Below, in pieces: positions 1-58,529 of a DNA stretch of 64,000 bases; within the stretch, counting starts at the first letter, position 1, and each line of letters starts with the position of its first letter. Both the position numbers and the translations under genes were made by a program. A model generated the notes under the pieces. That model saw only the letters and a list, made by a program, of their open reading frames with translations. It was not told the origin of the DNA and did no database searches. The DNA comes from Diadema setosum (lineage: Eukaryota; Echinodermata; Echinoidea; Diadematoida; Diadematidae): positions 4,406,289 to 4,470,288 of the forward strand of contig CM067067.1 of assembly GCA_033980235.1 (NCBI GenBank), read 5' to 3'.

Positions 1-1046
1 GAAAAGACGTGACACGAAAGACAAACATTATTGCGGGGAAGTCATCTAAAAACGGCACCTGTGCTTCGTCTGCTAATTTCATCCAAGGTCGGTACATATA
101 GGCAGAGTCTATGGTGAAAACTAGCTGCCATTCTATTTTTGGCCCGGCTAACGCGGTGGTTCTGCGCAAATCGTTAATTCTAATCCATTTTGCCCGACTT
201 CTTTTTAACAAGTCCTACAAATGTACAAGCGGCATGCAAGTTCAACCAAAATGGCCACTGTCTCAGACAGAGTGTTTCCCTGGACCACACTGTTTTTTTT
301 TTTTTTCAAGACAAGGTTAGAAAATAATCAGGTTCAAGTTCAACAATGCTTTTCATTCTGTATGATTCATTCTAGAAAGGCCCACACGTCTGTTTCCATT
401 TCAGCTGCGCCAACTATCATCCAATTTACAAGCTATAATTAAGTTTAAGACCGACACAGGCACATAAGCTATTATAGATGGCTGGGTTGAAAAACATGCA
501 GCGAAGCACCGTATGGGATCTACTTGGTCTCGTTCCCCCTAAACGTTTAGGTAAAATTAACTTCTCTGATTTAATCGAATCATGGCGAATAATACAGATG
601 GGGGAAGTGTATGACGAGTTGATCGAGTCGAGTGGAGTCGAGCTGATTACACCCATTAAAAGGGGACAATGATAATGAGAAAATGATTCATTTGGCACGC
701 CTATAAATCAAATTTATCCTGCGTCACTTGAACAGAAACTAAGAAATTAACCAGTCAAAGGATTCAGTCATTCTAAATCTACCACAAAACATTGAAAAAT
801 TCCTCTAAGTGCTCCATCACTGTGAATTCCATGGCATCGAACAAAGAACAATCGTGAAAGTGATCCATACGATACGATCAGCAATTGGATTGATGAGGGT
901 ATTCGTGTATAAAATGTGTGTGTGTGCGACTGATGTCTAGGAAAGAAATTGATTTACACGGATATTATTTAGAAACAGCTTCAAAACAGAGTGAAAAGCT
1001 GCAAAATTAGAACCCAGGTCGCTCAACAGCATTTTGTTTTATATGA
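1..1046. other. Noncoding, nothing recognised
   Basis: Unique-looking AT-rich sequence with a T run near 291-306. A 64-aa frame at 478-672 matches nothing I know and lacks exon signals. Confidence 0.6.
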
Positions 1047-1075
1047 AACAACAACAACAACAACAACAACAACAA
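1047..1075. repeat. (CAA)n microsatellite
   Basis: About ten CAA units. Confidence 0.95.
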
Positions 1076-2806
1076 GATCGGTACACTGATGAAAATATTC
1101 TTCGTTGTGTCAGAAACACAACTGAACATTCTGACACTTATTACATAAACCATTCAAGCCAATTCATCAGAGTTTCTAACTATCGATCCCTTGCCTCTTT
1201 CATTTAACAGAATACCCAAGGTATTTGTATTACAAAGCTTTCCTCTAAATCTTACATTGTGACTTCGTGTGCGTATGTATTAGCCGCTTGTATTAATATT
1301 ATCTTCTTTTTTTTTTCTTTTCAAATAGTGCTAGAACAAAATTGCATCAATGGCCAACGCATGCACCCATTTTCAGCCGAAAATCTCAACAACTGTAAGA
1401 GAGAGGTTTGATTTAAATCAATGAAAAGGAAAATATCAACGGTTTATTGATTCGCCACTGCATAAACATCGTAAGGCCAGGAGAGTCCTTGTCCTTTCCT
1501 GATATTATGTTCCACTTGGAAACATCTCACACCACTGATCACAATGCTGTGACATCAATAAAATTGAAATTAAAGGGCAAGATTGTCACTGCACAAAACA
1601 ACGTTGTGATTCTTCGACCCTTTACATAATTTTATGCACGCCTGAAATATGGGACCTCAAAGATATTTATACAATATCCGAAATATAGGTTGTATTTCTG
1701 ACTTTTGTAGTTCACGTAAAAGCATGAACAGCGGGTGGAATATTCATGGTGCATCAGATCTCCACAATCCACGGTGTTTCCCTTTTTGTTATATAAAGGG
1801 AACGGTTCCCGATGGTTGGTTATAAATCTTCCTCCTTCAATAGTGTTCAATCTATACTTCGCGTAATTTACAGGACTTTACCTGTGCAAGATCCACGTAC
1901 AGAGAAAATGCTACTTAACAGATTATGGGATAGGTAATAGCTTATCTGCATTTCTTGAATCGTTGAATCGTCGTTCTCGCACTGACTGCAACGTTTACCG
2001 AAACAATAGAAATGACTCCTTAGACTTTTTATTCTTCGATTTGAAAAAAAAAGGCGTTTGAAATGAAAGGGAATGGTTTTCCTCGTAAACATTGATATCT
2101 ATTTCTTGGGTGCATGGAACTCTTGTCTTCTACCACTATGGAAACAGGAAAATGAACAAATTGGTTTACGTAGGAGTGTATGCCTCCTTCGGGAAGAATC
2201 CATTCCTTTATATGAATGACTGATTTAATGCAATTACAATTACAATTCCCGGTCACTTGTCATAGTGGATCGACAGTGACAAATGTCAACACGGAGCTAA
2301 TGTCCTAACCAATATCTCCAGAAGACTTAAGAGGGGACCATTCCGTGTAATTAGTGCTACCATTCCAATCCATTCGGCAAATATTTGATGTCATAAGTGC
2401 CGTGGCGGACGACTAAATTTCGACATTTTCAAGTGTGTTTTTATTCAACCTGGGAAGGGAAAATGGATGACGTTACTGATAATGAAGAACTGACATGGAA
2501 GGTTTTAATACCACTGTTATTTGTTGTGAGACGAGCACAATTTAAGAGCATTTAGAAATTTCACGTTATCTACGATAAACAGGGAGGTTTTCACTAATTA
2601 GTGGAAACCCTTTGATTGAGATGTTCATCATCATTAAAGAAAAAACAACACGGAGTCATTACTGAATGCGGGACTACTGTGTTCCATACACTGACCAACA
2701 TATTTTATTATTTGAATGCATCATTTGCCAGGACTATTTCGGCCAATCTATACCACTTTGTCCATCACAACAGTTGCATTTAGTCAGCATCTCAAGCCTT
2801 GTGGTC
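1076..2806. other. Noncoding, nothing recognised
   Basis: AT-rich unique sequence; a T-rich run at about 1307-1321. Only short frames of 60-75 aa without domains. Confidence 0.6.
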
Positions 2807-2833
2807 GAGAAAAGTACGAGTTGTTAATTGCAC
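2807..2833 (+). repeat. Flanking motif copy A (inverted partner of 5459-5488)
   Basis: GAGAAAAGTACGAGTTGTTA followed by ATTGCAC. The same motif, with one extra A, an extra TA and one substitution, is found inverted at 5459-5488 and directly (24 nt) at 5617-5640. It lies about 90 bp beyond the 3' end of the broken LINE. Origin unknown. Confidence 0.7.
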
Positions 2834-2940
2834 AATAGTAACGTTTTCCCAGGGTTTTTCAGGGTTTTTAATTTGATATACAATTTTCACCCTGTCTGTC
2901 AAAGGACATACATATACATATATGTCAGATTTATTCAGAT

Positions 2941-3680
2941 TTATTCAACACTTTCAGTAAAAAACAGAGGAGAATACAGAAAATTGACAACACCACATAC
3001 TATAACAAGAAAAGAATAATCACAATAAGCATCAGTACGAATATACAATACATTTGAAAGTGTTCGGAGACAGACAGAAAGGCTATGGCTTATATAAAAG
3101 TCCTGTCCCCACACTATTTCGGCATACTGATTTAAAACATGCAATTTTAATTTTCTTTTAAACACATTCAGCGATGAACTCTGTCTTATTTCGACCGGAA
3201 TATCATTCCAAATTTTGGGTCCATTAAAAAATATAGAATTATATGATGGCATAGTTATGGCATAAGGCAATGTAAGTTTATCTTTGATTCTCATATCATA
3301 TCTTCTGTTATCACTTATTTTAAAATAGTTAATCAAACATTTTGGAAGCATCTTCCTAAAGCATAAATACATAAAAATTGCACTTTGATAATAATGTATA
3401 TCATTAAATTTTAAAATCTTCAGATTAAAAAATATAGGCGATGTATGGGCAAGAAAATCACAGTGATGAATAATACGGACAAGCTTTTTCTGCAATAAAA
3501 ACAAAATCTCCTGGCATTGGTCATACCTGAATTTGCCCAAGCTATTGCACAGTAGTTTAAATGAGGTAATACGAGAGTATTATAAAGAAGAAGCAACACC
3601 TTTCTTGACAGAAATTGCAATTTATAAAATATTCCTACATTTTTTGACAATCTATTGCAGACGACACCAGTATGTTCGTT
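2941..3680 (-). pseudogene. LINE RT thumb and C-terminal domain, frameshifted
   Basis: Continuation of the RT. The segment to about 3540 reads SKNVGIFYKL, then LYNTLVLPHLNYCAIAWANSG, the conserved region after the palm. Near 3500-3540 the reading shifts to another frame, which continues QKKLVRIIHHCDFLAHTSPIF, then FFNGPKIWNDIPVEIRQSSSL and FKRKLKLHVL, the C-terminal block common in CR1/L2/Rex-type elements. The final stop is a TAA at 2941-2943 inside the tandem 3' repeat. The change of frame between the two halves shows decay by a small indel. Confidence 0.88.
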
Positions 3681-4202
3681 CTAATTAAGTTTGTTATCAA
3701 TTGTCACACCAAGGAATTTGATCGAACAGACTTGATCAAAATGTATGTCTTTAACTTCAATCCTAATTTCGTTGATATCTATCTGTCTTTTCGTGAATAC
3801 CATATAATTTGTTTTCTTTACATTAAGAACAAGTTTATTACAGTCTAACCAATCAAAAAATTTCAAAAATTCTTTATTAAAATCATTTTGAAGTACAACT
3901 GGATCTCTACCCTTCATGAACATACTGGTGTCGTCCGCAAACATTATTAACTGCAAAGAATCTGAAACATTACACATATCATTTATATATAACAAAAAAA
4001 AAAGCAAAGGACCAAGGATAGATCCTTGTGGCACACCACATCTTATTGTCATCATATCAGATTCAATATCATCATACACAACATATTGCTTTCTTCTACT
4101 TAAATAGCTATCAAACCATTGTAGGTTCACTCCTCTAACACCATACAAATTAAGCTTTTGCAATAAAATTGAATGGTTTAATGAATCAAAAGCTTTACTC
4201 AA
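3681..4202 (-). pseudogene. LINE reverse transcriptase, palm segment with FADD
   Basis: 173 codons carrying the RT catalytic core: KAFDSLNH (residues 3-10, motif A Asp at 6), CGVPQGSILGP (55-65), FADD (88-91, motif C) and KFLGV near the C-end. All three catalytic aspartates are present. Two scars are visible. The usual LLFLLYIND reads with one extra Phe, from an in-frame expansion of a T run. The frame stops at a TAG (3681-3683) where related proteins have Trp, after which the same frame resumes at 3680. There is no true start: the frame opens with TTG after the upstream frameshift. Confidence 0.93.
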
Positions 4203-4204
4203 AT

Positions 4205-4753
4205 CTAAAAAAGACCAATCATTATTTCTTTATCATCAAAAGTATCAGCGACCTTGTGTATAAATTCAACAACGGCAGAAGATGTAGAATGTACAGCTCG
4301 GAAGCCAAACTGCTTATTACTAATTATATTGCACTTTTCCAAAAAAACAGATAAATTATTATACACACATTTTTCTAATATCTTTGAGAAAAGAGGAAGA
4401 ATAGATATAGGGCGATAATTACTAACTTCTTTTTTTGACCCTCCCTTGTGAATTGGAATGACCTTAGCAATTTTCATTTGATCCGGAACAATATCTGATG
4501 TAAAAGATAAATTAATAATTGAACTCAGTGGATAAGATAAGATATGAATAACTTTTTTTAATATCATAACATTAACATTATCAAAACCAGGACTCTTATT
4601 ATTCTTGAATATAGAAACAATGCCAATAATTTCTTTCGGGGTACATGGCAAAAAGAAAAGAGTAGATTGATTTTGGTTGACATACCGCAAGAAATTACCA
4701 TTGCCTTGACATTTTGCGGCTAAACTTGGACCAACATTAATAAAAAAAATCAT
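4205..4753 (-). pseudogene. LINE reverse transcriptase, fingers/early palm segment
   Basis: 182 codons matching the N-terminal part of a non-LTR RT: FFINVGPSLA near the start, KSPGFD (residues 53-58), IPIHKGG (99-105), SNYRPISILP (111-120) and FGFR followed by HSTSSAV (149-161). The frame is lost exactly where the first catalytic Asp motif should begin: a T run near 4206-4211 appears one base short, creating a TAG. The protein continues in the next frame from 4202. It is in the same frame as the upstream endonuclease fragment, so the two were one polypeptide. Confidence 0.92.
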
Positions 4754-4798
4754 TAAACAAAAATATTACTTATTGAATACTTTTCGGTAACAATACTT

Positions 4799-5464
4799 TT
4801 ATTGCACTTGATTGAGGTTGGTAAAGTTTTTTTTTTTTTTTTTGGACCCAGAGCCTAATATCCCATGTATGATATTCCACGTAATCTTCATATTTCCTGC
4901 AGCACCTTCAAATTTCTTTGTAAAATATAATCTTTTAGCTTCTTTAATTTTCTTTACATCATTATCATAGACATCCCAACGAGAATTCTGCGTCTCAGTA
5001 ATAAAACTAGCAGTATTTTCTTCATTCATAACACGTTTCATCTTAATATCAGGCTTCTCATTTTGGCGTAAAGATACATTGGATATTGCACAAATCGGGA
5101 AATGATCACTAATGTCTGCTACAATGACACCTGAGAAAATGTCTTCAAGGTAATTTTTTAAAATGTTATCAATCAAAGTAGCTGAATTACTGGTGATGCG
5201 TGTCGGACTATGGATCAAAGGATAAATACAATTTGTCATACAAATATCAAGAAAATTATTTACATTCTGAGAAAATGAAACATTGAATAAATTTAATTTA
5301 TAATCCCATAGAAGATAAAGTAATTTCTTTTCTTTATTTACAACTCTCAATATTTCTTCTAAAACATCATTAAATAATTGCACAGATTGATCAGGTGGAC
5401 GGTATACAACACCAACTATTATATTTCTATCAGTATTTTGTATCTCAACAAAACGTGGGTGCAA
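4799..5464 (-). pseudogene. LINE endonuclease fragment (C-terminal half)
   Basis: A 221-codon open stretch of an exonuclease-endonuclease-phosphatase domain, the nuclease that nicks target DNA for target-primed reverse transcription. Visible motifs are VGVVYRPP (residues 17-24), WDYKLNLF (53-60) where functional copies usually have GDFN, PTRITSNSATLIDNI (87-101), and SDH (119-121) with the catalytic His. The Gly and Asn of GDFN are Trp and Lys here, so the active site is damaged. The start Met is probably only the first ATG after the truncation point: residues before FVEI do not look like LINE protein. The frame ends at a TAA (4799-4801) and meets another stop before the RT segment, which lies in the same frame. 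Confidence 0.9.
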
Positions 5465-5478
5465 TCAACAACTCGTAT

Positions 5479-5488
<10 letters not shown>
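5459..5488 (-). repeat. Flanking motif copy C at the LINE 5' edge
   Basis: On the minus strand it reads GAGAAAAAGTATACGAGTTG and then TTGATTGCAC, the inverted counterpart of 2807-2833. It coincides with the point where recognisable LINE protein begins and is followed by a TC/TA microsatellite. Confidence 0.7.

Positions 5489-5526
<38 letters not shown>
5485..5526. repeat. (TC)n then (TA)n microsatellite
   Basis: About 12 TC units followed by about 9 TA units. Open frames here are repeat artefacts. Confidence 0.95.
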
Positions 5527-5616
5527 ATACATATTATTCATAACTCTCTGGCCCAAAAAGGAACATGCGCATAAAGGGTTGAAAGGTTGGTCCGTCGGGT
5601 AATCGAGCTTGTCGTA

Positions 5617-5640
5617 GAGAAAAGTATACGAGTTGTTGAT
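5617..5640 (+). repeat. Flanking motif copy B
   Basis: GAGAAAAGTATACGAGTTGT then TGAT. With the inverted copy at 5459-5488 it makes a 180-bp hairpin-like unit; with 2807-2833 it is in direct orientation. The preceding bases (about 5605-5616) also resemble those before copy A. Confidence 0.65.
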
Positions 5641-5646
5641 ATAACC

Positions 5647-5648
<2 letters not shown>

Positions 5649-5685
<37 letters not shown>
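5649..5685. repeat. (TA)n microsatellite
   Basis: An uninterrupted TA run of about 18 units. Confidence 0.95.
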
Positions 5686-5687
<2 letters not shown>

Positions 5688-5824
5688 TTCATCACTAAAA
5701 TCATTATAATCATCATCACTTTGCAATTAAGGTTCACAACATTTAATACGTACAGCTTGGTCCCGACTTCAAATAATACTGAGTAACATCCTATACTTCG
5801 TGACTGCTGTAAAATACGGACATT

Positions 5825-5920
5825 GAGGGGCCCACATTCTACAAGCTTGAGGGGCCCACATTCTACAAGCTTGAGGGGCCCACATTCTACAAGTTTGAGG
5901 GGCCCACATTCTACAAGCTC
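5825..5920 (+). repeat. 4 x 24 bp minisatellite
   Basis: Four exact-length units beginning GAGGGGCCCACATTCTACAA at 5825, 5849, 5873 and 5897. Unit 3 differs by one C to T change and the last base of unit 4 differs. Directly after the array comes AGTGGGTCTCTCC (5930-5942), which can pair with the GGGGCCCAC of a unit. The array therefore looks like an amplified left arm of a hairpin in a LINE 3' UTR. Confidence 0.95.
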
Positions 5921-6161
5921 TGTCTTTTTAGTGGGTCTCTCCATTTTTCGCACTTTAAGCAAAGTTATACATGTACAATATTTCGATCACTCTGTTTTTT
6001 TTTACTACAATGTATAATTACTATGTGGTCCTCCTAAATTGTTTTATATTCTTTTCGATACATAATGTTCTGTTTACCTTATTCTCTGTTGTCAAAAGAA
6101 GTGTAACTTATATTTTTTGTCGAAAAATTAAATAAACTTTGAATTGAATTTGAATTGAAAA
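5921..6161 (+). mobile_element. Probable 3' end of a CR1/L2-type LINE, plus strand
   Basis: A noncoding stretch that starts with a GTGGGTCTC hairpin arm, continues T-rich, and ends AATAAACTTTGAATTGAAT followed by TTGAATTGAA (6133-6159). The GAATT-type tail matches the tail of the LINE at 28.5 kb, in opposite orientation. No coding part is attached: a 5'-truncated 3' UTR fragment. Family assignment is inference. Confidence 0.5.
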
Positions 6162-6759
6162 ACATTTCACTCTTTACACGAGACTACGTATCGTTGCATT
6201 TTCATACGAGAATCTCAACCAAAGCCCCAAGAGTATTTATCCTTTTGTGATGAGTGTGATGAGTGGGATAAGAAGAGGTTTACAAAATCTAGTTTTTGTA
6301 CCACTAGTGTGGGCATTGAAACTGTTTTTCAATGCATGAAATCAATTAACGGTCACCTACCAAAATCACAATTCCATACCCCAGATGGCTATACAGAATT
6401 AAAAGCAATTACGCGCTTAAATACAACAAAATAGAAGCATAAAGTCATACCATTGCGAATTAATCGATCGTTTTTCCAAATGAGGCACGACAAATTCCCT
6501 GCATTCGGGTTCATGCACTTTCAAAGAATAGCAGATTGATTTAACGGTATAGTGCATTGCTCGTGATTTAGTTCTTTATTTTGTTGCTACATCTTCATGG
6601 AAATGACGACCTATATATCGTGTTATCACTAATCACTGCGAGTTCCTATTCATAATCAGACTTTCAGGGGAAATAGCATCGCCCCAAATCGCCTATGTAG
6701 TTAACAACTGACAAACAAGCACAAAGCCTCAAAGTAGGAGAAATACAGCGGGAAAATAT
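6162..6759. other. Noncoding spacer
   Basis: Lies between the LINE 3' fragment and the TTAA element at 6760. No repeat or gene seen. Confidence 0.6.
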
Positions 6760-7319
6760 TTAAAGGACAAGTTCACCTTCCTAAACATAAGGATTGACAG
6801 AATGCAGCAATATTAGTAGAACACATCAGTAAAAGTTTGAGGAAAATTGGACAATCGATGAAAAAGTTATGAATTTTTTAAGTTGTTGTGTTGGAACCGC
6901 TGGATGAGGAGACTAGTAAGGCTCGTGATGTCATATGAGTGCAACAGTATAAAGAAAATGTACAGAAAATTAAACATATTTTCACTTTTTTCGCATAATA
7001 AAAGAGCACTTGACTTGCCTCTTTCTAAAGGCAACGGGAATAATATTACCCATGTCAGTAACGAGTCAAGGGAATGTGTACTTTTTTCAAAAGATGAAAG
7101 TTTGTGAAATTCTCTTTATAATTTCCTTATACTGTTGTACGCATGTGACATCATACACTGCAGTAGTCTTCTCATCCAGCGGTGACTACACAAAAAATTC
7201 ACAAATTCATAACTTTTGAACGGATTGTCCGATTTTCCTCAAACTTTCAATGACGTGTTCTACTAATGTTGCTACATTCTCTCAATCCTTATGTTAATGA
7301 AGGTGAACTTGTCCTTTAA
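6760..7319. mobile_element. TTAA-flanked palindromic MITE (560 bp)
   Basis: Starts TTAAAGGACAAGTTCACC and ends GGTGAACTTGTCCTTTAA. The outer inverted repeats remain recognisable for more than 100 bp (AACATAAGGATTGA, AGTTTGAGGAAAATTGGACA) and weaker pairing continues to near 7025, so the whole element is an imperfect foldback. There is no transposase frame; open frames at 6883-7107 and 7010-7219 lie inside it and are incidental. TTAA target sites are known for piggyBac- and Kolobok-type transposons, and the element is probably moved in trans by one of these. Confidence 0.9.
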
Positions 7320-8114
7320 TGACGATGTGAGATCAAGTCGGAACTAAACCGTTCAATACTGATTATTGATACTTAAAGATGACCAGGTGACTCTCCTATT
7401 AGAGGCCAAGCATAGCTCTTTATAATTTCCGATAACTAAAACAAATCATCACTTACGGTAGAAGACAGCAACGACATTCCCTGGTATATTTTTGATTGCA
7501 TTTCTTACAAAATCTTAAAATAATCTTGAAAACACTCTCCGCCGAGATGTAACTACAATTTTTACGCAACACCATGAGCATTTGAATCCCCCCCCCAAAA
7601 AAAAACAACAACAAACAAACAAACAAACAAACAAAAACAAACAAACAAAAAAAAAACCGATGCGTTACAATGCGGGCTGTGTACTACGTCTCACAAACAA
7701 TGAAAGAGCTTCATAACGTATGTACTCCACAGGTAGCCAATCTGTCAATCAAAACTGTTACAATGAGGCCAAAATGGATGTAAATAACAGATGAGGATGA
7801 GTGTAGCATGTATCACTGTAGTTGTTATTTTTTGGTAGTACAGTACCATCAATCATGTTAATATCCATTTGTGCTACTTCAGTTAAGGGCAATTCCACGA
7901 AAAATGTTACTTTTTTTAAAAATTCTAAATATGTTTTAATTTGAAAAATATATGAGCTACAGGGACAAATTTAGTATCAAATGCTAGAACTTATCAGTTC
8001 TTTCATTTGAGTGGTATTTTGATACAAATGAAGTGCATTTAGGCATTCTTTTCTTCAAAAACCCCATTTTACGGCAAAATCTTTGTTCATTTTTGTAAAA
8101 ACACACAATCTTTT
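7320..8114. other. Noncoding spacer
   Basis: Holds the CAAA repeat. 7880-8110 is AT-rich, with nothing recognisable. Confidence 0.55.
7603..7652. repeat. (CAAA)n / A-rich repeat
   Basis: AAC and AAAC units ending in an A run. The minus-strand frame with poly-Phe/Leu-Val-Cys here is an artefact. Confidence 0.9.
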
Positions 8115-8258
8115 GTGTCGCATGGAATATTTCGTTACGAAATTGGTCATTTCGTGGACGAAATGTTCATTTAGTTACAAAATGTTGTCATTTCGTTACA
8201 AAATAATCATTTCATCGACGAAATGACTGATTTCGTAAAGAAATATTCCATGCGACAC
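8115..8258. mobile_element. Short inverted-repeat element with ATTTCGT subrepeats
   Basis: A 144-bp element with 29-bp ends matching at 28 positions: GTGTCGCATGGAATATTTCG on the left and its complement ending GCGACAC on the right. The interior is made of ATTTCGT/ACGAAAT words in both orientations. No coding capacity. Superfamily unknown. Confidence 0.8.
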
Positions 8259-8280
8259 TTGGTGCTCCATGGTTTTTGTT

Positions 8281-8296
8281 CATGGTTTAAACCATG
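8281..8296. repeat. Perfect 16-bp palindrome
   Basis: CATGGTTTAAACCATG, with further CCATGG words around it (8268-8300). Just outside the 8115-8258 element. Function unknown. Confidence 0.7.
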
Positions 8297-8498
8297 GTTT
8301 CATTTGTACCACCTTCGTGAATTCGGGCGATTATGTTCATGGTCACATCTAGGTCTGACATTATAAACCTCAAACTTGCACAAAACAATTATTGTTAAAG
8401 TCCCCATATTGTATAAGTACCATGGAAACTGAAATAAAAATGGGACAAGAACAAGTGGAACTACGAATCGTCACAGCACTACATCAGGGTTTGGTATG

Positions 8499-8536
8499 AA
8501 AGTTTTTTTTTTTTTTTTTTTTTTTTTTGGGGGGGG
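8499..8536. repeat. T28 run with following G run
   Basis: A homopolymer run of T followed by about nine G. Confidence 0.9.
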
Positions 8537-8767
8537 GCTGACAATGTTTGGACGATTAAAAACAGCAACACTGAAACAAAAGTGGATAGATACTAAACGT
8601 AAACAGGAAGTGCGGTTAAAAAGAAAGAATGAGCATGATACTCAAAAAGAAACGAAAAATTATACTGCGCATGTACATGTATAATTCGAAAAAGTGGATG
8701 TTCACAGAAATTATGTTAATAGGGAGAACAAAAATCAACTATCACTTATTTCGTGCGACACTATTTC

Positions 8768-8795
8768 TGTTGTTGTTGTTGTTGTTGTTATTGAA
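8768..8795. repeat. (GTT)n microsatellite
   Basis: About eight GTT units. Confidence 0.92.
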
Positions 8796-10058
8796 AACCC
8801 TCCAACCAAACCCACCTGCAACTATTTCACAATCATAAACGGCATTTTATACCTCTCGTATAAACAACTTTGGAAGATAATGTCAAACTTGACCTCATTC
8901 ATGACGTCAAACAAAGTAACATTATACTAATTTACCCTTGATACAACTGGGTCAGTACAAAAGAAGGGTATGCAACCAATCTGAATAACAGGTATTACTC
9001 TTTGTGACGGAAGTGTAGGATGCGCAATTATGCACAGCGCTTGGACGTTCTCTAGTCATTTTGATCTTCTTTCAGAGTATACAGATGGCGTTCCACACGG
9101 CTTAATTTTGCATTTCGTTGGGTACAAGGGAAACCGAGCGAAACTTACTACTGTAAGAAGGCACCTCGCACATATTTTTCTTTTATACGTACTGTATTAT
9201 GATGCCCCAAATACCCGACATGATTTGATGCCCCTTATGCAGAAAGTAGGCTAGATATTATGACGCCTGAGTCGTCGATGTAGTAACCATCATCGTGTTC
9301 GGGTACATGCAGAAAGGATAACACTCAAACTTGGAAAAAGTGCAATTTGTCATTGCTGTCTTTAAAAGTCATGTGCTCAGTCATGCTTGACATTTGTCAA
9401 CATAATTAGGTATCAATGAAAAGAAAGAGTTCTTCTTTTCTCACAACTAATATTGTGCTCTCCATAGCTGACAATTATGAAACAGTAGCCCTGCAAAGTT
9501 GGATTACCTTTTTTTTATACGCACTGTACATGCCATAATAGTTGCAACTCTGCAAATCTTGGCAAATATCGATTAAAAAACAACCATGACATGACACTAT
9601 TCACGACAGAAAAAAAAATATCAAAGAGAGAGAGAGAAAAAAAACAAACAAACAAAGAAGTTCTTACCGTTTTACAAAGTAGTAAGAATGTGAAATTTGT
9701 TTATTTTTCTTGCATTACAATGTACCGTGAAGTTACGACATGTACGCGGTTGAATTCTGAATGGCTGGTCTGACCACACGACGTGAAGTTAGTATTATGT
9801 CTACAGTATAAACTTGCCCTTTTTCATTCATTTGAAACTGGAACACTAGTCGAATAACCACACGTACCACGGAGAGAACAAAATCACGGCGAGAATAGAT
9901 TGTCAACTTGCTTGCTTGCTTTATTCAGTAACCATACGGTCCTAGCAGAGATCTTATAACCGTAACAGACATCTCGCTGAGCCCTGCTCAAGCAACAACC
10001 TATAACCCGATTAACAATATTTAATGTTTTACTACTATGTTCATGACACTCCTGACCA

Positions 10059-10178
10059 AAAAAAAAACAAAAAAAAAAACAAAAAAAAAAAAAAACAAAA
10101 AAAAAAACACATGGGGTGTAGTTAGAGGAATCTGCCCATCCCCTCGCACACACACACACACACACACACGCACACACT
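10059..10178. repeat. A-rich tract with C interruptions, then (CA)n
   Basis: A8-A14 blocks separated by single C (10059-10109), unique sequence, then about 16 CA units (10147-10178). Confidence 0.92.
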
Positions 10179-10479
10179 AACACTTCCCTACAGTAGGTGA
10201 CAAGACGGGAAATTTGAAATTTGAAATTATTGGTGTTTTCAGACACAAATAACTTTTCACGTTTCTTCCACTTCATGTTTCTAACAGCCACTAATACTTT
10301 CCATACTTCAGTTCTGTTGGTACGATTCTGTCCACTTTTTACAACTTCTGACTACCACTGACACAAATGCTACACACTAAACTACCACTATTCTACAATC
10401 AGATCAACTGTCATGCTCCTGACACCAATATCATTTTCTACTGATTGTATGAACTGCGACTACTTTCGGCGCTGCTTTA

Positions 10480-10750
10480 CTCTCTACGACTACGACTAAT
10501 ATCACCACTACAACCATCACAATATTGATCTTATACTTTTGTACTAGTATCATTACACTACTACTGCAGATGCTAGTAATACAACTGCGTCTTCAAATGT
10601 TACTTTTGTATCTTACTATCTTAGTCTTACTACAGCTACTACTATTAGTACCACTACTACTACTACTACCACTACTACCATTACTACTACTAACTACCAC
10701 CACTACTACTACTACCATTACTATTACTATTACTACTTATACTACTATAA
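10480..10750. repeat. Degenerate (ACT/ACC/ATT)n trinucleotide array
   Basis: Trinucleotide periodicity is densest at 10626-10745 (ACTACTACC, ATTACTATT and similar). The Leu/Thr-rich 90-aa frame at 10525-10797 is its translation, not a gene. Confidence 0.92.
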
Positions 10751-11028
10751 TACCTATCTATGTCAGTCAATGTAATAACCACGGAGTAGTTCCATGATAT
10801 AACTACATTATTTTGTTACGTTTACCTGCTAGATCACACGTAAAGTAAGTATTCATTATAAATGAAAACGCCAGAGCTCTTTTTAAGACTTTATTCCCTT
10901 GACACATTTAAAATTGTGATCTATATCGACATACCTGCCAACACTTCGTAATAATCGTCGCCATAATATCAGTTGTCAATATGGAAGTTGAAACATCACT
11001 GTGATTGGTTGTTGTGTATGTTCATAAC

Positions 11029-11043
11029 TCCCCCCCCCCCCCC
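11029..11043. repeat. Poly-C run
   Basis: About 14 C, followed by a CT-rich stretch, about 100 bp beyond the 3' end of the mir-184 hairpin. Confidence 0.9.
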
Positions 11044-11151
11044 AACCCTCTCTCTTTCACTCCAACTTTCTCTATCTGCAGCTGTGGGGGAGTGGCTTGG
11101 GGCGTGACGATTACAGCTGCTTGCCTCGGCGATGATATGTGTCTTATATGA

Positions 11152-11173
11152 GCCCTTATCAGTTCTCCGTCCA
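11152..11173 (-). ncRNA. mir-184: miR-184-3p mature guide strand
   Basis: The 22-nt mature product, with seed GGACGGA at guide positions 2-8. This is the dominant strand of the family in the animals I know. It sits on the 3' arm of the hairpin. Confidence 0.95.
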
Positions 11174-11200
11174 GCGCGACTTCAAGTAGAGTTCACTCGG

Positions 11201-11221
11201 CCGGGCAAGAGAATGATAAGG
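11201..11221 (-). ncRNA. mir-184: miR-184-5p (passenger arm)
   Basis: The arm opposite the guide. It begins CCTTATCATTCTC and pairs with the guide with the mismatches usual for a miRNA duplex. The exact ends are set by analogy with insect miR-184-5p. Confidence 0.8.
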
Positions 11222-11604
11222 AATGATAAAAGACAAGGACAGGATGATGACTTTGGGAAGGAGTGCTGACATCATCGATGACGCCGTCGCCATGATTATC
11301 TCCAAGTCCAAGTCGTCAATGATGCGATTCAGCAGCTGGTATGGTTTAGATCCCCTGCGTTGATAGATCGATGTCTGACGTTAATTCCATCTGTTACAGC
11401 ACTTCCTGAATATAGCCTTACTTCTACAGAATATCCCCAAATCTCAAGCCCGTTTGACAACGCTTGCCATAAACCAGCATTTCTTCGAAAAAAAGTGTTG
11501 TTACACACGCCATGACACATCATAAATCAACCATAACTTATCATATTCATCACTGTGTCTCTGTAAATCTTAACAGATCAGATATCAGTTGACAATACTT
11601 TTTT

Positions 11605-11606
<2 letters not shown>

Positions 11607-11640
<34 letters not shown>

Positions 11641-11660
11641 CGCGCGCGCGTGTGTGGGTC
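11607..11660. repeat. (GT)n-(CG)n alternating repeat, upstream of mir-184
   Basis: About 16 GT units, AG, five CG units, then TGTGTG. Alternating purine-pyrimidine of this length with a CG core is a classical Z-DNA former. It is about 370 bp 5' of the mir-184 hairpin on the minus strand. Confidence 0.92.
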
Positions 11661-12504
11661 TGTGTGTGTTTTCAAGAGGAGATATGCGATGTATCCAAGT
11701 GATATATTTTCTATCCTATACCAGGACTATAATCGAAACATTAAATACAGGGGTAACGTTTTGTAGATATCTTCTTCTTTTCATTGTTGACATAATCTCG
11801 CACTGCACTCAGATGGGTGCTGCTGTTGTGGATGAGAAAGCAACCTGCACTAAATATTCATTGACATCGAATAAATTTCTTTCATCCCGCATATAAATAT
11901 GATCATAATGATGATAACAAGCACTATCATACAAGACTGACGATTTATGACGACGATTCTACCAACAATACGAGTAATAACAATCATAATCATATTATCA
12001 TTGTCAATACAGATTGTGTAATAACTATTGGTCGGACCCTGTTCACGACTTCGAAATCGATATTCCAACTCTCGTCAACAAAAGTGACCAAGAAATAGCC
12101 TTTCGAAAGTCCGAGTTGAGACTATTCTAGTTCATCGAGAAGACAATTTGCATACAAGTGTTATGTTTTCCCTTCTGGATATGCACAAGAACGGCATGCC
12201 TTGCGAGAAATCACTATGCACGGAGCCTTTAGCTTGGTGATTTAAAAAGTATGACCGATCTCAGAGATGCTCGTCGTCATGGTTACACGAACTGAGTTCC
12301 TCCATATCAACTCGGGGCGAGGTGAGGGGCCTAGACAAGCAGCAATGTGTGGTCCTGTTGACTTTATTGTAAGTATATGTATTACCATGGTATTACCAAA
12401 ATGGCTTGCCGGCTAGCATGGAAGTGGCAGACAAAAGGCAATTTCCTCTCAAAATGACACAAATGTGCTTACTGTTAATTTGTCATTATATCTGAGAAAG
12501 CCGG

Positions 12505-12545
12505 TATAAAAAGGTCCTTGGGGCAGTGTCGTCTGTGTATATGAA
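12505..12545 (+). promoter_or_regulatory. TATA-like core promoter motif
   Basis: GCCGGTATAAAAAGGTCC at 12501-12518 is a good TATA box with GC-rich flanks. It is on the plus strand and so does not drive mir-184. No transcript is evident. Confidence 0.18.
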
Positions 12546-13599
12546 CACGACCGCCATAATCATTAGAAAGGGATAACAAGCTACGTGTCTTCATTACACC
12601 ATGCACAGGAAGGAAAGCCGGACCGATTTCAGTATCCTGGGAAGACTGCTAGATCGCCGCGTTAATCACTATTTCATGAACTCCGTACCTTACATGTAAC
12701 AAGATGACCTACTTGCGCGGATGATCTTTCGTTAAAGTCTCCGGTTGGGTCTTCAGGCCGACATCAATCACTTCCGAGGTATCTATGACGACAAGAATAA
12801 ATCTCGCCATAAGAGGACCCATCGACAGCCGAATACACAGGAGACGAACCAGGATTTCAAAACAAGAAGCGAACTAACTCGCTCTGCACCTCCATGCTGA
12901 TATCGTGTACAAACGGTTACCAATGGCCCCAAAGCGTGAGGAACGACATGTTCCTGAAGGCCTGGTAATAGTACTACCACACAATACATCAAGGAGATGC
13001 ATTCCAAAAGAGATGATTCACGCTGTCACCATGGATACACGTCATTCAAATTAATAGACATCAATTTCTACGATACGAAAGTGTACTGACAAAGAAGCCT
13101 CCGAAGTTTGAACAAAAACCTATTGAAATGAGTTCTGTGATGCTTTACTGCTTGGTAATAACCCAACGACGACAGAATGTACTTTCTTATATCAATAATT
13201 GACCTGCCTTTTCTAATTACGTTCAACGGTTTTCTGCAAAATTTGAATTACGGTCGTGATTGTAAGGTAAAGTTGACGAGGTGACCTGTTTTAACATGTG
13301 CGGGATTGTACTAGTATGATCATGCATAACTGCTCCTTCATAAATATTCATGAGACTGCTGAAACGCGTGGCGGAGTCGCTAGTCGAGGGCCGAAAGACC
13401 ATTCAACTATACCACCGAATATTAACCATCGTATGAACTATCAACAGGATTATTGGAAATTTTGCCTCGTAATGCAAAACAAAATCGTCTCTTCAGAAAT
13501 ATATTATTTGCGTCTCGATATCACCATCAAAGGCTTAGCCGCAGAGCTTTCCTCTGGAAAGAAGAGGCTTTTAAAAGAATGGTTATATGTCCTGTTTCC

Positions 13600-13613
13600 C
13601 CCCCCCCCCCCCA
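13600..13613. repeat. Poly-C run
   Basis: About 14 C. The proline-rich frames crossing it are artefacts. Confidence 0.85.
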
Positions 13614-14141
13614 CCCTTTGTATAGAATTCTGGCCAGTAACTCACATATAAATGTGACACGTGGGACTGACTCCGGCGACTTTATAAACACAAGAAGTGA
13701 ATTTCCTCCCAGTTGCATTGTAGGGGAATAGACGAGAAATGTTACCCGTTTGATTGATCTCCTCTCGGAGGTGCCGTGTTTATGTTCTAAACGGATCGTA
13801 TTTCTTAAATCTGAGGCAGAGTGGTGCAACAGTCTCGGTTACTCCTCAGTCTTACCCATCAAGGTAGTAGTGTCTCTATCTAATTCATTGCAACCTTAAT
13901 GAAAGCCAGCGTTCCATCGACTGCACAGACAGCTGGTAGCAGTGCCTTTTGTCGAACAGACCCGAGAGAGTAAATTAATTCTGCATTTAAGGTAGGTTTC
14001 AACCACTGAAAGCTGTGACTCTAGGCAAGGAGATCAGTGTTCTCAAACTCACGTGTGTTTGAAATACAGCCGTCTCTTGACATGTTCCATTCAATTTAAA
14101 TTTGCCTTTCTTATTCGGTTGCTAGATTTGCAGCAAATACT

Positions 14142-14213
<72 letters not shown>
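14142..14213. repeat. (GTA)24 microsatellite
   Basis: 72 bp of uninterrupted GTA. It gives a poly-Tyr frame on the minus strand, not a gene. Confidence 0.97.
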
Positions 14214-16739
14214 ACATTCAGCTAACACGGCGGTTAACATCCCACTAAAATATGGGCAACCAATGTAAGAACATGAAGGCAGCGGGGAAACCGTTACCGT
14301 TACGTTCAGATTTGCAGGGAACAATCTCCGCCTGGCTTCAGGCCTAGCCACATTTACCAAGGGTACATGTCAGGCTTTTTATCCATCTACACAATAATTG
14401 GAGTTGATACGTGCAGGATTTTCGGCTACATGGCGCGTGGGGGCGAGGCGCTTCCCGTGGTAATCAGTGCCGCCAAAACGATTCAACGCTAGCAATTAAA
14501 CTCAACTCACACGATAGCAAATCAGAAACAAGCCGGCCCGTGCAAGCTATACACAATGGTATTTTATCTCGCCAAGATAACTCACAGCACAGAAACATAA
14601 ATGTCATGAATCGCTCAGAGTGCTTAGAGGTGGACCCTGGACATCACGTGTCCTCTTTGTCATCATATTGGCCTCAAAACCACAAACGAGCATTGATTTA
14701 ATATTCAGACATATTAGTTGTAGCATGTGCGTGCGTGCGTGCCTGCCTGCTTGCGTTCGCACACTTCAAAATCAGGCGGCGGTCGTCATTTGCTGTCCCG
14801 TATGTACAACTCTCGGGATAGTCGTTTGATCACCGCCTAGGGGTAGAAAATATGACGCTGATAGTCATAGTGTGTCGGAAGACAGTGTTCTCGCATGGGT
14901 AATGTCGAGGATTCTTGAATTCCGATTCAAAATGCAAACCTCTATTTTCATTGAGACATCACCAAACTTGAAAAAGCAGGTAATGCATTGCACTACACGC
15001 CTTACCCACCCAACCTTTTCATCATAAAAGTGAATAGCCCACGCAAAGAATACCGTATTGAATATCATCTACTACGCCTGCAAGGAGAATGGAACCATTT
15101 TATTTTCCCCGGTATATGCCAGTTACTCAATACGAGTATTTTTCCCATGCTACAACACTCAAGCGAATAAGCAAATTGCAATGTTTACACTGATCATTTA
15201 CATGTAATTATTTCCCAGGTTAGTTTACTCATAATATTCACTGAGGAAATACGTATGAGAATCCCATACACCGATCCAATTCCTTTAGTAGTACATCGTC
15301 ATGCGTTCAGTAAACACCAATAATTATATCACTCAACGGACTTTTTATTCGAATAATTGTACACACATGGGGGACGCATCCTCTGCGCATCATTTTGCCA
15401 TCGATTTCTTGCCTTTAGTTTTCCATCAATTTACGATTCGTAGGTATTGATTCGCATGTATCATATAGATGGCCCACCACTGCCACGTTTTCAGTCACTG
15501 TTTCGATCATTGTCATGTTCAGAGCTATTATAGACGAAACACTGGAACATAAACTTAAGTTTCTACTTTGGAATGTTCACAGACACCGGTCAGTGACACT
15601 CAATCCCAAACTTTCCATTTCAGAACTGACTACTGACAAGCGACCAACATTCTGTGTTTTCAAAAGATCTAATATAATAAAATGTAATAAAAATCCTCGA
15701 CGTCTCAAATAATATCTGGCCATGTGCCCCTTTCCTCGAGTGATGCAGGACATTAAAAAATTTAGATGTGTTTAAAATTTATGGGATATTCCTAGAAACA
15801 TATTAGGCTTACGTGACGTCTTTCCCGTATATCATACGACATGAAAATTTTGCTCCTGAAGTTGCTATAAAGACTAAGTGGGGTTTGTGCTTCGATGGCC
15901 TTACTAATTTATTTCCATAATGAACGTCATAAGAAAGGGTGAAATTGAAGAAAGAATGACAGTGGTTTACTGCTCTAGTTATGTCCCTACGCCGTGCCTT
16001 TTTTTTTTTTTTTACTCAAGCTATGTTATAAATCATGACCATGTCTCAAAGCGGAAGACAAGGGTTTGAAGGATCATACAGCGGCCTTCAAGTACGACTT
16101 GCCTACAGTTGTGGGAGGGCACATTACTGTCACTTACAGCACGAAGACGATTCTTCTCTACCACTGACTACCAGCATAACTGGAGAAATAGAGGGCGTGG
16201 TCGGGTTGTTTCCATTCTTCCCCGTGCTCCCAAAGCCATGCACACCGGTAACAACGTGCGATTCTAAAACAGTACCATATGGCATACCCCGCACGCGATC
16301 CAAGTGACATTCGTTCTACGTAATGTAGCAGAAACTAGCATGGTTTGGACGGACACAAGGCGGATGTGTGTCCGGTGTTTGTGCGATCAATTCCCTGTGT
16401 AACTTGAGCGCCAGGATATTCACTGTCCCATTCAACTATCAAATATTAACGCAGATAATATTGGTGCTCGATGATGGCAGGGGGGATGTACACGGATGGC
16501 AAGCGGTATATTTGTCTCTTCTCACTAATTAGAGTCTCCTTCGTGAGGCCAGGTAAGAGTCATAGCAAATTAGCTCGCAGGTAACCCTTGCAGATTCCAT
16601 GAATAAGACAGTGCGAGCAGGAAATTGTTTCATAAATTATTTACCCCAATCTTCTCAGCCTTCCTCCCAGACCATCTCTTCCATCAGTTATTAACCAACC
16701 AGGTCTTACGCAAACCGCCGGGAACACGCATTTAGCGTC

Positions 16740-25365: not shown

Positions 25366-25848
25366 CCGCGTCTCTGAAAGGTTTACCCTCTCCGATATTT
25401 ATTATCAAAGAGTTGAAAGCGACGCCATTTTTTCCTCTTTCTCTTACTCTCTCTCTCTCTCTCTTTTAAACAAGGACATGAGGCATTAGCGCCATTTTGA
25501 ATTACCATCTCACTCCAGGATCATGCATCGACCACTTTCGGTCGCTTCTCCGGATTTCTCGGTACGCCATCAATTTTGTTTACAGATAGACGCACATGTT
25601 ACAGAGCGAAGGGGACAGTGAGTTTTCCCAGGGCGTCTTCTGTCATGCCGCCAACCCGGCTCCTGTAGCTTTTACCGCCATTACACATACTCTCCAAGGC
25701 GACGTAAGGACGCAGGTGACTGCAAGACGTTTTATACATTCTCTTTTAAAGTTTACGGCATCAAGAGTCATGAAAGCTTGCAAACATATGCGCACACGAT
25801 ACACAAACATCTTGCAGACAGCGAGGATTACAAACATTATATATCTGT

Positions 25849-25966
<118 letters not shown>

Positions 25967-28520: not shown

Positions 28521-30066
28521 ATTCAATTCAATTCAATTCAATTCAATTCAATTCGTTTATTCATCTCAATCATCATAAAACAAATACATTTTGAGATCAA
28601 CATAGTAAACAAAAAAAGAGTATTGATGAGGAGAACGGGGACTACAAAAAGCGGTTGCTTGAAAAGGCGTAAAGCCCCCAGATTACAATGATAAATGGAA
28701 TGCATGTAAATGTACATAACGAAGTGAACATAATTTTTAAATGAAGTAAAATAATAAACTGTTTGAATTTGTACATAAAACACAGAAGATACTATACATT
28801 GAAATGGAAAAAATAAGTAAGGTCTTAGCTCAGTAAAGTTCGACGCCTCCTCCCCCCCCCCCCCCCATAAATGCAGTCACAGACATGATGCATATATATT
28901 CCTCTTAGTAATAAAATTCATGAGTATATATTATAACTATTGTAAATTCTTTTGGAATTCAAATCAAATAAAATGATTGAATTTGGTTATTTTCTTCATA
29001 TGTATGAATCAAAAGATTCTTCAATTTAAATGTGAAAGAAGTTATGGTTGAACAAGAAGCGATGTCATTTGAAAGGTTGTTCCAGATACGGGGACCGGTA
29101 TGCTTAACAGATTTTAATATGGAGTGACTATTGGTTGCAGGATAATTGAATTTAAGACGTGAACGAGTATTATATTGGTGAACATCTTTATTGTGGCGAA
29201 ATAAATTGGAAATATTAACTGGTGCCAAATTATTATTAACATAGAACATTAAATTAGCGATTTTGAATCTATAAATATCATATATTGTTAAGGTTTTTAA
29301 ACGAAAAAATAGAGGCTGAGAAGGGGCAAAATAAGCAGAATTAGAGCATATACGTAGAGCTTTCTTTTGCAATTTGTGTATGGGATCTAAATGAGTAACA
29401 CCAGCATTTGCCCATGTAATGGTGCAATACTGTAAATATGGGAGGACAAGAGAATTATACAACATAAATAGCTGCTTTTCAGGGAGCGTAGTACGTAATT
29501 TGCATAATATACCAATATTTTTGGAAACTTTGTTACAAATCAAAAAACGGTGTTCGTTAAATTTTAATTTTTCATCAAGTATAATACCTAGAAATTTAAC
29601 TGATGTTGATAAACATAATTGAACATTATTCATCTTGATTTTAACTTCATCTAAGACATGAGATATTGTGGGTTTACGAAAGTACATAACACTTGTCTTT
29701 TCGTAATTAATAATTAATTTATTAGCATCAAACCACTCAGACACTTTATCAAGCTCAGTATTTGTTTTAGAGACAAGGTACTTAAAATCACTGTGAGAGG
29801 AAATAATATTGGTATCATCAGCAAATAACACAAAATTAAAGAAGGAGGATACATAACATAAATCATTGATATATAAAAGAAACAGGAGAGGGCCCAGTAT
29901 GGATCCCTGGGGGACTCCACACTGGACCCTAGAATATGATGAACTACAGTTATTGTAGAAAATAAATTGGTATCTTTCATCTAAATAGCTGTGGAACCAG
30001 TCCCACACTGTACCCCTAATTCCAAAGTAAGATAATTTGTACAAAAGAATATCAAAAGAATTTTGG
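28521..30066 (-). mobile_element. 5'-truncated CR1/L2-like LINE nested in the TA MITE
   Basis: A minus-strand insert of about 1.55 kb. It begins inside RT motif A and ends in about seven GAATT units (28521-28554), a short-repeat tail typical of CR1/L2-type elements. The 3' UTR (28958-28555) contains a G run (C on the plus strand, 28854-28866). Its borders are sharp because the host MITE is palindromic and the uninterrupted left arm shows the expected pre-insertion sequence. No clear target-site duplication is seen. Confidence 0.92.
28959..30064 (-). pseudogene. Reverse transcriptase fragment with intact open frame
   Basis: A 372-codon open frame, uninterrupted from the truncation point to the stop. 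Counting from the first codon of the open stretch (TTG at 30077, outside the LINE), it shows NSFDILLYKLSYFGIRG (residues 6-22, remains of motif A), CGVPQGSILGPLLFLLYIND (53-72), FADD (85-88), SVKFLGIILDEKL (159-171), LYNSLVLPYLQYCTITWANA (206-225), HQYNTRS (300-306) and GPRIWNNL (328-335). The endonuclease and the RT fingers are missing and the first codons belong to the MITE, so no working protein can be made. The intact frame and unmutated FADD mark a much younger insertion than the LINE at 2.9-5.5 kb, to which the protein is clearly related. Confidence 0.93.
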
Positions 30067-30354
30067 CTGATAGCCAATTAAATTACCTTCAATATGGTAT
30101 ATAATTCATTAACTTTTAGGCAAATATTCTATGAGAAATACAATCTTAAAAAAGTGTTTACTTTCTTTTTTGGCTGAGTGTATATACACATACAGATATA
30201 CACAAGGGCGCACACAAACACACACACAACACAAATAAGACACAGAAGTATAGACACTGACGTGATAAAAGCAGCATGATACTCCTCAAACTATTAAATG
30301 GAATTATCGTACAAAATCAAATAAAACAAATTCAACAAATAACAAATGGAAAGT

Positions 30355-52709: not shown

Positions 52710-55700
52710 TGTTTATGTCAACTGTTCGAGAACTGAGCAGTTAGAACTTAAAATGAGTAAAATGATGGGGTCATCATTTCGCAATTTTCATTGATTATGT
52801 AAATAATTATGATGAAAATGATATTCTTCTCCTTTAAAATAGTGTCATTACTTGCAGAATAACTTCAAAATTATGATCAGTCAGCAGCTATATCAGGATT
52901 TGATACCGAGACATAATTGCGTTTGAACCAGAACAAAAAACAAACGGGAAAATTCAAGATCTTATAGAATTATGTGCAAACTACATGTTTATAGCAAGTT
53001 GTCAGGCGATTATAAATATGATCAACTCACTACTTCATATTGAGCACTGTTTCGAGTAAACTGGCACAACTTCTCAATTTCATAATTTCTCTAATTCTTA
53101 TTCGATTTTGACAAATTTTTCATTGTTGTGCTTGTTACTCTCTTTTTTTTTCAGACCGACTTTTAACAGGTCAAGAATTTTCCTTTTGATATCGTATTAT
53201 TGCGTTACAGTCATTGCCAGATTTTCGTTCATACATGTTCCCATTAACTCAGACCAGTGCTGAGCATGACATGTACCAGCTACCTGCGGCTACTCATATT
53301 GAATATAACGAGCAAAAACAGGACAAAGCTGGCACACTCACGTACGCGCACACACAGACCACACACACAGACATTATCCCACTAATTAATTACAGCGTGC
53401 CCTGCATCTGAACATAATAGCTAGGGCATAATCAGCCAACACCCAGACACACATATTGACGTGTATACACAAGAGATAATGTCTCAGCTCTCTTGAGTCG
53501 AAAATCACACATCATCCACACCCAGGCATGCTATTTAAAAACACATTTGAAGAGCAGAGCTCTCTTTCGAGAGGTCTTTTTTGTGGTTCGGAGAACTGAT
53601 AAGAGTTTACCTGCGACGTTAAACCGCCTCCTCCATTCTTACACAATCAGGCAGGACCCTGACGAACGGTATACTCCCTATAGAAACATATTGTATACAA
53701 AGCAGGCAGAACGTACTTCTCTGTGAATAGAACGAATGATTGTATGTGTAATCCTGCGGATTGGGTGAGGAGGTTTGCACGGACTGATAAAGCGCGCTAC
53801 AGTGCACAAACAGGGATTTAAAAGGCGAAAGGGTTAATCAGGGATTAAGGGACAAGTATAGAGCGGTAAAATCGCAAACGGAGACGAAAAAGACGGGGAA
53901 CTATGCACTGCAAGTGGGTGTATTGGAAAGGCGTATAATATCAGACGACATGTGGAAAACTGGTATGCCATGTGGCTCTTCTTTGGCCTCGAACTAGAGA
54001 CCAGGGGGCATTTCATGAAGCATTTTGTCCGACAATTTTGTCGAACAAATTTGCTCTTGGCCAATCAGATGCAAGGATTTCAGAAGCTTGTAACAGTTTG
54101 TCAGAAAAATATCTGACCAAAAAGCTTCATGAAATGCCCCCCTGCACTCTATTGAATCATGCTTCAAAGTCCATAACTCCTACAAAATAATATAAGCACA
54201 CTTTACAATTACAGACACGAGTATGACCAAGGTGTATTGATTGTACACGACATATTACGAGCATGTTTCGTGTTTTTTTTAATTAAATAAACATGTTAAC
54301 CTATCAAGCTAGGGTACAAATTCATTGAATGTGATGGGAGGTTTACGACAAAGAAGGTAGGCCTACTTCTATGAGCTAAATATGTCTTAAAATAAAATCT
54401 TTTTTTTTCTTTGAATACCAAGTTTCATTTTTCAACTAAACGGTGTTCTCGTTCTCATCATGTAACATATTTGGTGTTTTCTTTTTAGATAGACCCTGAA
54501 TCTCATGGATTTACTTCATCGGTCGGAAAGAGTCCTTTATGTATTCCCCTACTAACTTTGCCAGTACCACTCTACACTGTATACCCTACCCTGGTTAGCT
54601 TACGCACGGATGTACACACACACATTTGCTTGGAAAGTGGTGGGGACATTATGGAATTATTGCCCATTTATCATTTTAACCCTATTGCAAAAATACTCTA
54701 AATGAGTGATGTTTTTCATGAGTTTAGCGTAACAAAGTTTGCGGCTGATTCAAAGTAATTTCAAGCAAGAACATACACAGAACGACATTTCCGTGTGTAG
54801 ACTGTAACGTTATGGAAGTGAAATATGACACACAGATATGGCAATAGTGAAATTCATTTCATTTTCATTCGAGACTCGAGAGAGTACTCAAATTGTAAAT
54901 GTCGATACATCGCGCAGTGCGATACCGGTGCAGTTCTCCGTGTCTCGATACAAGAGGCCTGAGGGTACGAAGTAGTTCCTACACGCACAGAGGTCATGGA
55001 GTGCAGGTCAGCGGCTCACAATCAGTGACTTTCTGATCTTTTCCGGTTTCCGGGGATTTTGTGCAATGAAATAGCGGAAGTGTAATTTAGAGAGGACATT
55101 CTATCCACGCTAATATATAATATCTTGGGCAAGAGTATCCTAGCCGGGGATAGGTAATAGATCGGACCATGTACCTTGATCGGAATATCGTGACATATGG
55201 ATAGCCGAAAGAATCACTCCCATCATCTCGCGATATTAAACATTAGCAGTAAATAATCAGTGTACAATTCCGCCTGCCAAAGTACATCAACTCTCTAGGC
55301 GCGCAATACAAAATTGTAATTGATTGCCTTGGAAACGTCATGCAAGAGAACTTGCCTAACATTAACAATACCAATATGAATGTAGCCGAACATTAACAAA
55401 TCAATGTGAATTTACTTTTCTTACAACAGTTATACGTACTTCTGTCGAAGCGCTCGTGCAGGAAAATGTCAAGTATAATATAAGCGCTTTAAATAGACAG
55501 GCGGTTGAAGCTCTACGTTGCATGCAGCTTCGTGAAGTTATCGCTGCAGAACGAAGACATGCTGTGACTGATGGGCCTTCTCCTAACGAAGGTAATTAAC
55601 CAAGATGTCCCGCGGATTCCTTGCCAGACCCGACTCACTCGAGTCCCTGTCAAAATACCCCCGCAAATTGGCGACGCTCAACGGAGTCGGGGGCGATGGA

Positions 55701-57805: not shown

Positions 57806-57903
57806 GTTCTCCGACAAAGTTGACGATCATTAAAATTTCATGATTGTCAACTTGGTTGGAGAACAACCCTCTTATAAACGTCTAATGTTTACAAGAGGGT
57901 TGT
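57806..57903. repeat. Two adjoining hairpins
   Basis: Hairpin 1: GTTCTCCGACAAAGTTGACG onward (57806-57830) pairs with 57840-57864 at 22 of 25 positions. Hairpin 2: ACAACCCTCTT (57863-57873) pairs perfectly with AAGAGGGTTGT (57893-57903). The hairpins overlap by two bases. This could be a small MITE or RNA structure; there is no recognised miRNA seed. Confidence 0.75.
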
Positions 57904-58529
57904 AAAATAAGTACAAGCTGTTACTTTTGCATGCTGTCAGTTTGTACAGCTGTGAGACGCCGAATGCACTCAGGCACTCGTCAGACAAAAGAAAACATAA
58001 ATCTCATACATTTACAGCAGAGTGACCAGACGTCATGTTCGGCATCATATCATTACGGCCTGCCTGTGCAACATCAAATGTTTCATGGCATGATAGCCAG
58101 GGCGCCAAAAATATCAGAACATAAAATATGACTGTTTAACCCTGTAAATGCCTCAAGCAAGATTACTGTGTGCAGCAGCAATGGCATTTTACGACAGTAC
58201 TGCTATAAAAGGGGTTAAATGCGCAGAGATGCATCGCTAAAGTTAGTGGCGTCATAACGAAGGGGGGAAAGGGACTCAATTTGAGCAAACTTGCTGGGTT
58301 GATGGATGACAACTTCAACACTCAAGACATGAAAATTTTTCACCGACCAAGGGGCCAATAAGTTGACTCGGCTTGCTCCGAATTGTAACTCAATTTGGTG
58401 AGGCAGACGTCTCCGTTACCCCCTGAAATTGGAGTGATTGATGATTTACATGCTCTCGAGTTATTATTGAAACAAACTGCACAGCTAAAAATCGCCAGAT
58501 GATAGATTCAAAAGGTGTGAAATAACTCG

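Follow-up and report, generated by a model that had tools for sequence, protein, structure and literature searches.

A 64-kb stretch of the Diadema setosum genome (the window; positions 4406289-4470288 of its contig) carries on its minus strand, at 11141..11234, a hairpin locus that, judged by its sequence, is a genuine, ordinary and intact mir-184 orthologue. We hold it as close to certain that this locus, the only one of its kind found, is the mir-184 gene of the species and is orthologous to spu-mir-184. A complete mir-184 locus had been called at this place by an earlier reading of the DNA letters (the sequence-only reading), and the call is borne out by an above-cut-off match to the Rfam mir-184 model, by an exact mature sequence and by a predicted processing geometry that fits. 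The model, RF00657, aligned through its positions 1-86 with 11142-11233 of the minus strand and returned a score of 59.0 bits (E 3e-10), the curated cut-off being 54.1 bits.

The 22-nt 3p arm at 11152-11173 (minus strand), which the same reading had assigned to miR-184, proved to be an exact match to the mature RNA and carries the family seed GGACGGA. It is the sole exact copy of the 22-mer within the window, and also within the genome searched; given the composition of the window, such a match is expected by chance 3.0e-9 times per window and 4.2e-5 times per genome. All 22 of its 22 letters agree with those of the echinoderm spu-miR-184 printed in the accessible part of PMC4669494. The mature 22-mer is likewise common to Diadema and to insect and tick mir-184 (mosquito, thrips, and Haemaphysalis, in the excerpts available), a comparison made by mature sequence alone, and a letter search returned 24 papers that all contain it, with insects, ticks, mites, snails, fish, and a sea cucumber among their subjects. 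A letter search of the literature found no printed copy of the 5p arm, and the main text of the D. setosum genome paper (PMC11066563) has no word starting with "microrna".

To be accepted as canonical, an animal miRNA gene should have at least 16 pairs between its arms, stability exceeding that of shuffled sequences, 2-nt 3' overhangs, basal UG and CNNC motifs, and small-RNA reads that come from both arms and have uniform 5' ends. The minimum free energy (MFE) structure of the Diadema precursor contains 18 pairs with both bases inside the two arms. The hairpin, whose folding the sequence-only reading had proposed as a check, forms at -34.1 kcal/mol, compared with a mean of -20.5 kcal/mol for shuffled sequences (z -4.11), and none of 200 dinucleotide shuffles was as good. 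When flanks were included (a 141-nt stretch), the same hairpin formed but z weakened to -2.27, with 3 of 200 shuffles folding as well. A lower stem outside the duplex, which had also been claimed, is present as eight pairs that join 11234-11226 with 11149-11141.

The 5p arm, earlier described as the passenger strand of the family, starts at 11221 and agrees with the Rfam 5p alignment, one base being missing relative to the RF00657 consensus. Its extent (22 nt, 11200..11221, minus strand) follows from the MFE pair table on the assumption of 2-nt overhangs. Position 11221 pairs with 11154, and the 3p arm therefore extends two bases past the 5p end, as in a Drosha-type overhang; a U-G pair, 11222-11153, lies at the duplex edge just outside the 5p start. 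At the other end, 11173 pairs with 11202, so that a 5p arm of 22 nt, which would end at 11200, gives a 2-nt overhang on the Dicer side. The predicted geometry thus permits both ends of the duplex to carry 2-nt 3' overhangs, the 5p ends being derived from the structure and not from reads. Between the arms lies a terminal loop region of 26 nt (11174..11199, minus strand, from the same pair table), and the loop itself is longer than that of the Rfam model (14 versus 7 nt in the part that the alignment leaves unprinted). Within the 5p arm and the stem base, the element TTATCATTC occurs twice, one base apart (11211-11229, minus strand); the two copies would permit a shifted pairing register, and the MFE structure retains the canonical one.

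In the predicted structure, a basal UG is found at 11234..11235 (minus strand), at positions -14/-13 from the 5p start, and a CNNC motif at 11131..11134 (minus strand), its first C being at +18 past the 3p end. The rules for both motifs derive from work on human pri-miRNAs. The background frequency in this window is 0.071 for a UG at a fixed place, 0.124 for a CNNC at +16..+18, and 0.0086 for both jointly. Since chance alone would bring the two motifs together at 0.9% of places in the window, we regard them as mild support.

A second, better mir-184 locus elsewhere in the genome had been named in advance as one of two observations that would overturn the assignment, and none was found. The genome searched comprises 885,718,524 bases (885.7 Mb) in 96 contigs, and it yielded a single RF00657 match and a single exact 22-mer; of the 77,122 candidates of the first look, the model search scored 56, and a second match may have escaped it if weak. 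Allowing up to three mismatches, the 22-mer search returned the exact copy and six sites with three mismatches each; 2.3 sites are expected by chance given the window composition, and a control with the reversed pattern gave 0. As candidate extra copies of mir-184, the six were rejected: they have no RF00657 score up to E 1 and, when their folds were judged by eye, a mir-184 hairpin was seen in 0 of 6. Four of them belong to one repeat; compared with the fourth copy in excerpts of 820 nt, the other three show 93.4, 95.1, and 99.9% identity. The 22-mer of this repeat, at three mismatches to miR-184, has the seed intact, and an antisense RNA of the repeat would bear a miR-184-like target site, probably by chance.

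Inside the window, a possible local relic at 53585-53606 of the plus strand was also rejected as a mir-184 copy: it has five mismatches (17 of 22 positions match) and forms no mir-184-like hairpin. It has 15 consecutive exact bases in common with the mir-184 locus, and 0.031 such sites are expected by composition. We take the similarity to be due to chance; conceivably, the site is a very old mir-184 relic.

These searches bear on the alternative that the locus at 11141..11234 is a copy, decayed or duplicated, that has ceased to be processed, with the working gene elsewhere. The 5p arm, one base short of the consensus, would be in line with decay, but the mature arm is without a single change, the genome searched gave no other RF00657 match (56 of 77,122 candidates scored) and no other exact 22-mer, and the six three-mismatch sites do not score with the model up to E 1. 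We consider a dead copy very improbable.

Even less probable, in our estimation, is that the functional miRNA is made from the plus strand, or from both strands, as in some bidirectional miRNA loci. The plus strand does fold well (-32.4 kcal/mol, z -4.27), as do near-perfect inverted repeats in general. Against its being the functional strand, the mir-184 model gives it 21.8 bits, and the conserved 22-mer is located on the minus strand.

Folding energy by itself does not single out the locus. When the window was sampled as 94-nt stretches at a step of 10, the hairpin ranked 60th in energy among 12,783, the mir-184 locus being present twice in the list. Better folds are formed by 59 of the 12,783 sampled stretches; the case for mir-184 rests on sequence identity and not on energy. 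Those 59 stretches, and the fact that some of the best 25 low-energy ones lie within tandem arrays (for example, 25831-25871), might be thought to favor an inverted repeat that arose by chance or from a transposon and happens to resemble mir-184. For practical purposes, this is refuted by the genome-unique exact match of a 22-mer whose expected number in the window is 3.0e-9; the surrounding 1 kb, two simple-sequence stretches apart, also showed no other copies among the candidates scored, and we give the idea practically no credence. When the 1 kb around the hairpin was compared with the genome (40 of 162 candidates scored), the 126 matches consisted of the locus itself and of matches to two simple-repeat stretches, 10700-10758 and 11608-11669, which lie near the ends of the query and outside the hairpin.

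Several other foldable or repeated elements were seen in the window. The lowest-energy 94-nt stretch sampled, 57811-57904 (-46.3 kcal/mol on the plus strand and -41.3 kcal/mol on the minus strand), scores weakly with mir-2363 on both strands and is probably a palindrome. A repeat at 8122-8251 reaches 60.2 and 58.5 bits on its two strands with the MIR6135 model, whose cut-off is 99, and is probably a palindromic mobile-element remnant. Two apparent remnants of non-LTR-type retrotransposons are found on the minus strand. One, at 2941-5464, has its reverse transcriptase (RVT_1) matches within 3681-4765; in the other, RVT_1 matches fall within 28959-30077, the whole extent of the remnant.

The sequence-only reading had found mir-184 to be the only host gene that could be named in the 64 kb, and the analysis agrees: the window contains no tRNA, no further RNA family that reaches its Rfam cut-off, which leaves no miRNA cluster partner recognised there, and no Pfam family other than RVT_1 among the ORFs scanned. 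With E values of up to 5 allowed, Rfam models gave 22 matches, among them mir-184 itself and its opposite strand; six mir-297 matches were discarded, all of them overlapping tandem arrays. The window has 44 ORFs of at least 100 aa, and 3 of the 20 that were scanned with Pfam matched, each time RVT_1. A search for a host gene in 1-15000 of the window found 0 Pfam families in the three plus frames and one minus frame (stops read as X), in a scan run without a positive control; the RVT_1 matches at 3681-4765 lie in the other two minus frames.

The search was extended by 60 kb on each side, where 87 ORFs of at least 100 aa are found, 12 of which span masked bases; 7,500 of the 184,000 bases of the window and its flanks are N, all outside the window. 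Pfam was applied to 11 of the 87, and these comprised one kinase and ten more, one of which gave a sub-cut-off match (ZrgA). The protein kinase, a 332-aa frame on the opposite strand approximately 69 kb from mir-184, is the nearest recognised gene. Its frame shares 313 of 322 residues with a protein of D. setosum; the next matches are at 57% or below and come from sea urchins where the species is named, and a D. antillarum protein matches at 38%. By this one protein, a Diadema origin of the DNA is well supported. Upstream, to approximately 113 kb, no Pfam-recognised gene was found among the few frames tested, a result that short exons may escape. A frame at about 113.7 kb (window coordinates) on that side resembles a reverse transcriptase by eye. 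Because only retrotransposon remnants were recognised nearby among the frames tested, mir-184 looks like an isolated gene in intergenic DNA.

From what holds for the family, we infer transcription, cleavage, strand choice, and repression for Diadema mir-184 as follows. Drosha/DGCR8 would cut a primary transcript of the minus strand at a place that has the basal UG and the CNNC to one side of it and the duplex to the other. Dicer would cut next, leaving a duplex of 22/22 nt, and the 3p strand would then be loaded into Argonaute and would repress mRNAs via the seed GGACGGA.

Expression data exist for other echinoderms. In the coelomocytes of a sea cucumber, according to PMC4669494, miR-184 stood at 4.7%, had gone up to 24.7% 6 h after LPS and was back at 5.8% at 12 h. 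On northern blots of sea urchin embryos, as reported in PMC3247247, miR-184 was barely visible on day 3 and undetectable on days 1 and 2, and it was undetectable in the sea star as well; low sensitivity may be the reason, according to the authors. Expression may be weak or stage-limited. Both miR-184 arms are listed among the heat-responsive miRNAs of S. intermedius in the accessible text of PMC9277089. Highly conserved as miR-184 is, no clear common function has emerged for it, as stated in the extract of PMC12032250.

A role in the control of mir-184 for whatever flanking DNA may be conserved, as suggested by the sequence-only reading, is a reasonable candidate role only. We find it improbable, as a more specific proposal, that the entire interval from approximately 69 kb downstream to approximately 113 kb upstream could be a regulatory landscape devoted to mir-184, serving, for example, to switch the gene on in coelomocytes upon immune challenge; the idea of a coelomocyte immune switch comes from the surge of miR-184 in the coelomocytes of the sea cucumber.

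These results place mir-184 of a diadematoid sea urchin on a 40-Mb contig. The locus adds a species to the mir-184 family and not a principle, this kind of gene having long been known. Since the searches revealed neither a second copy nor a recognisable close neighbor, it is a clean target, whether the aim is to knock it out or to compare cis-regulation between echinoids.
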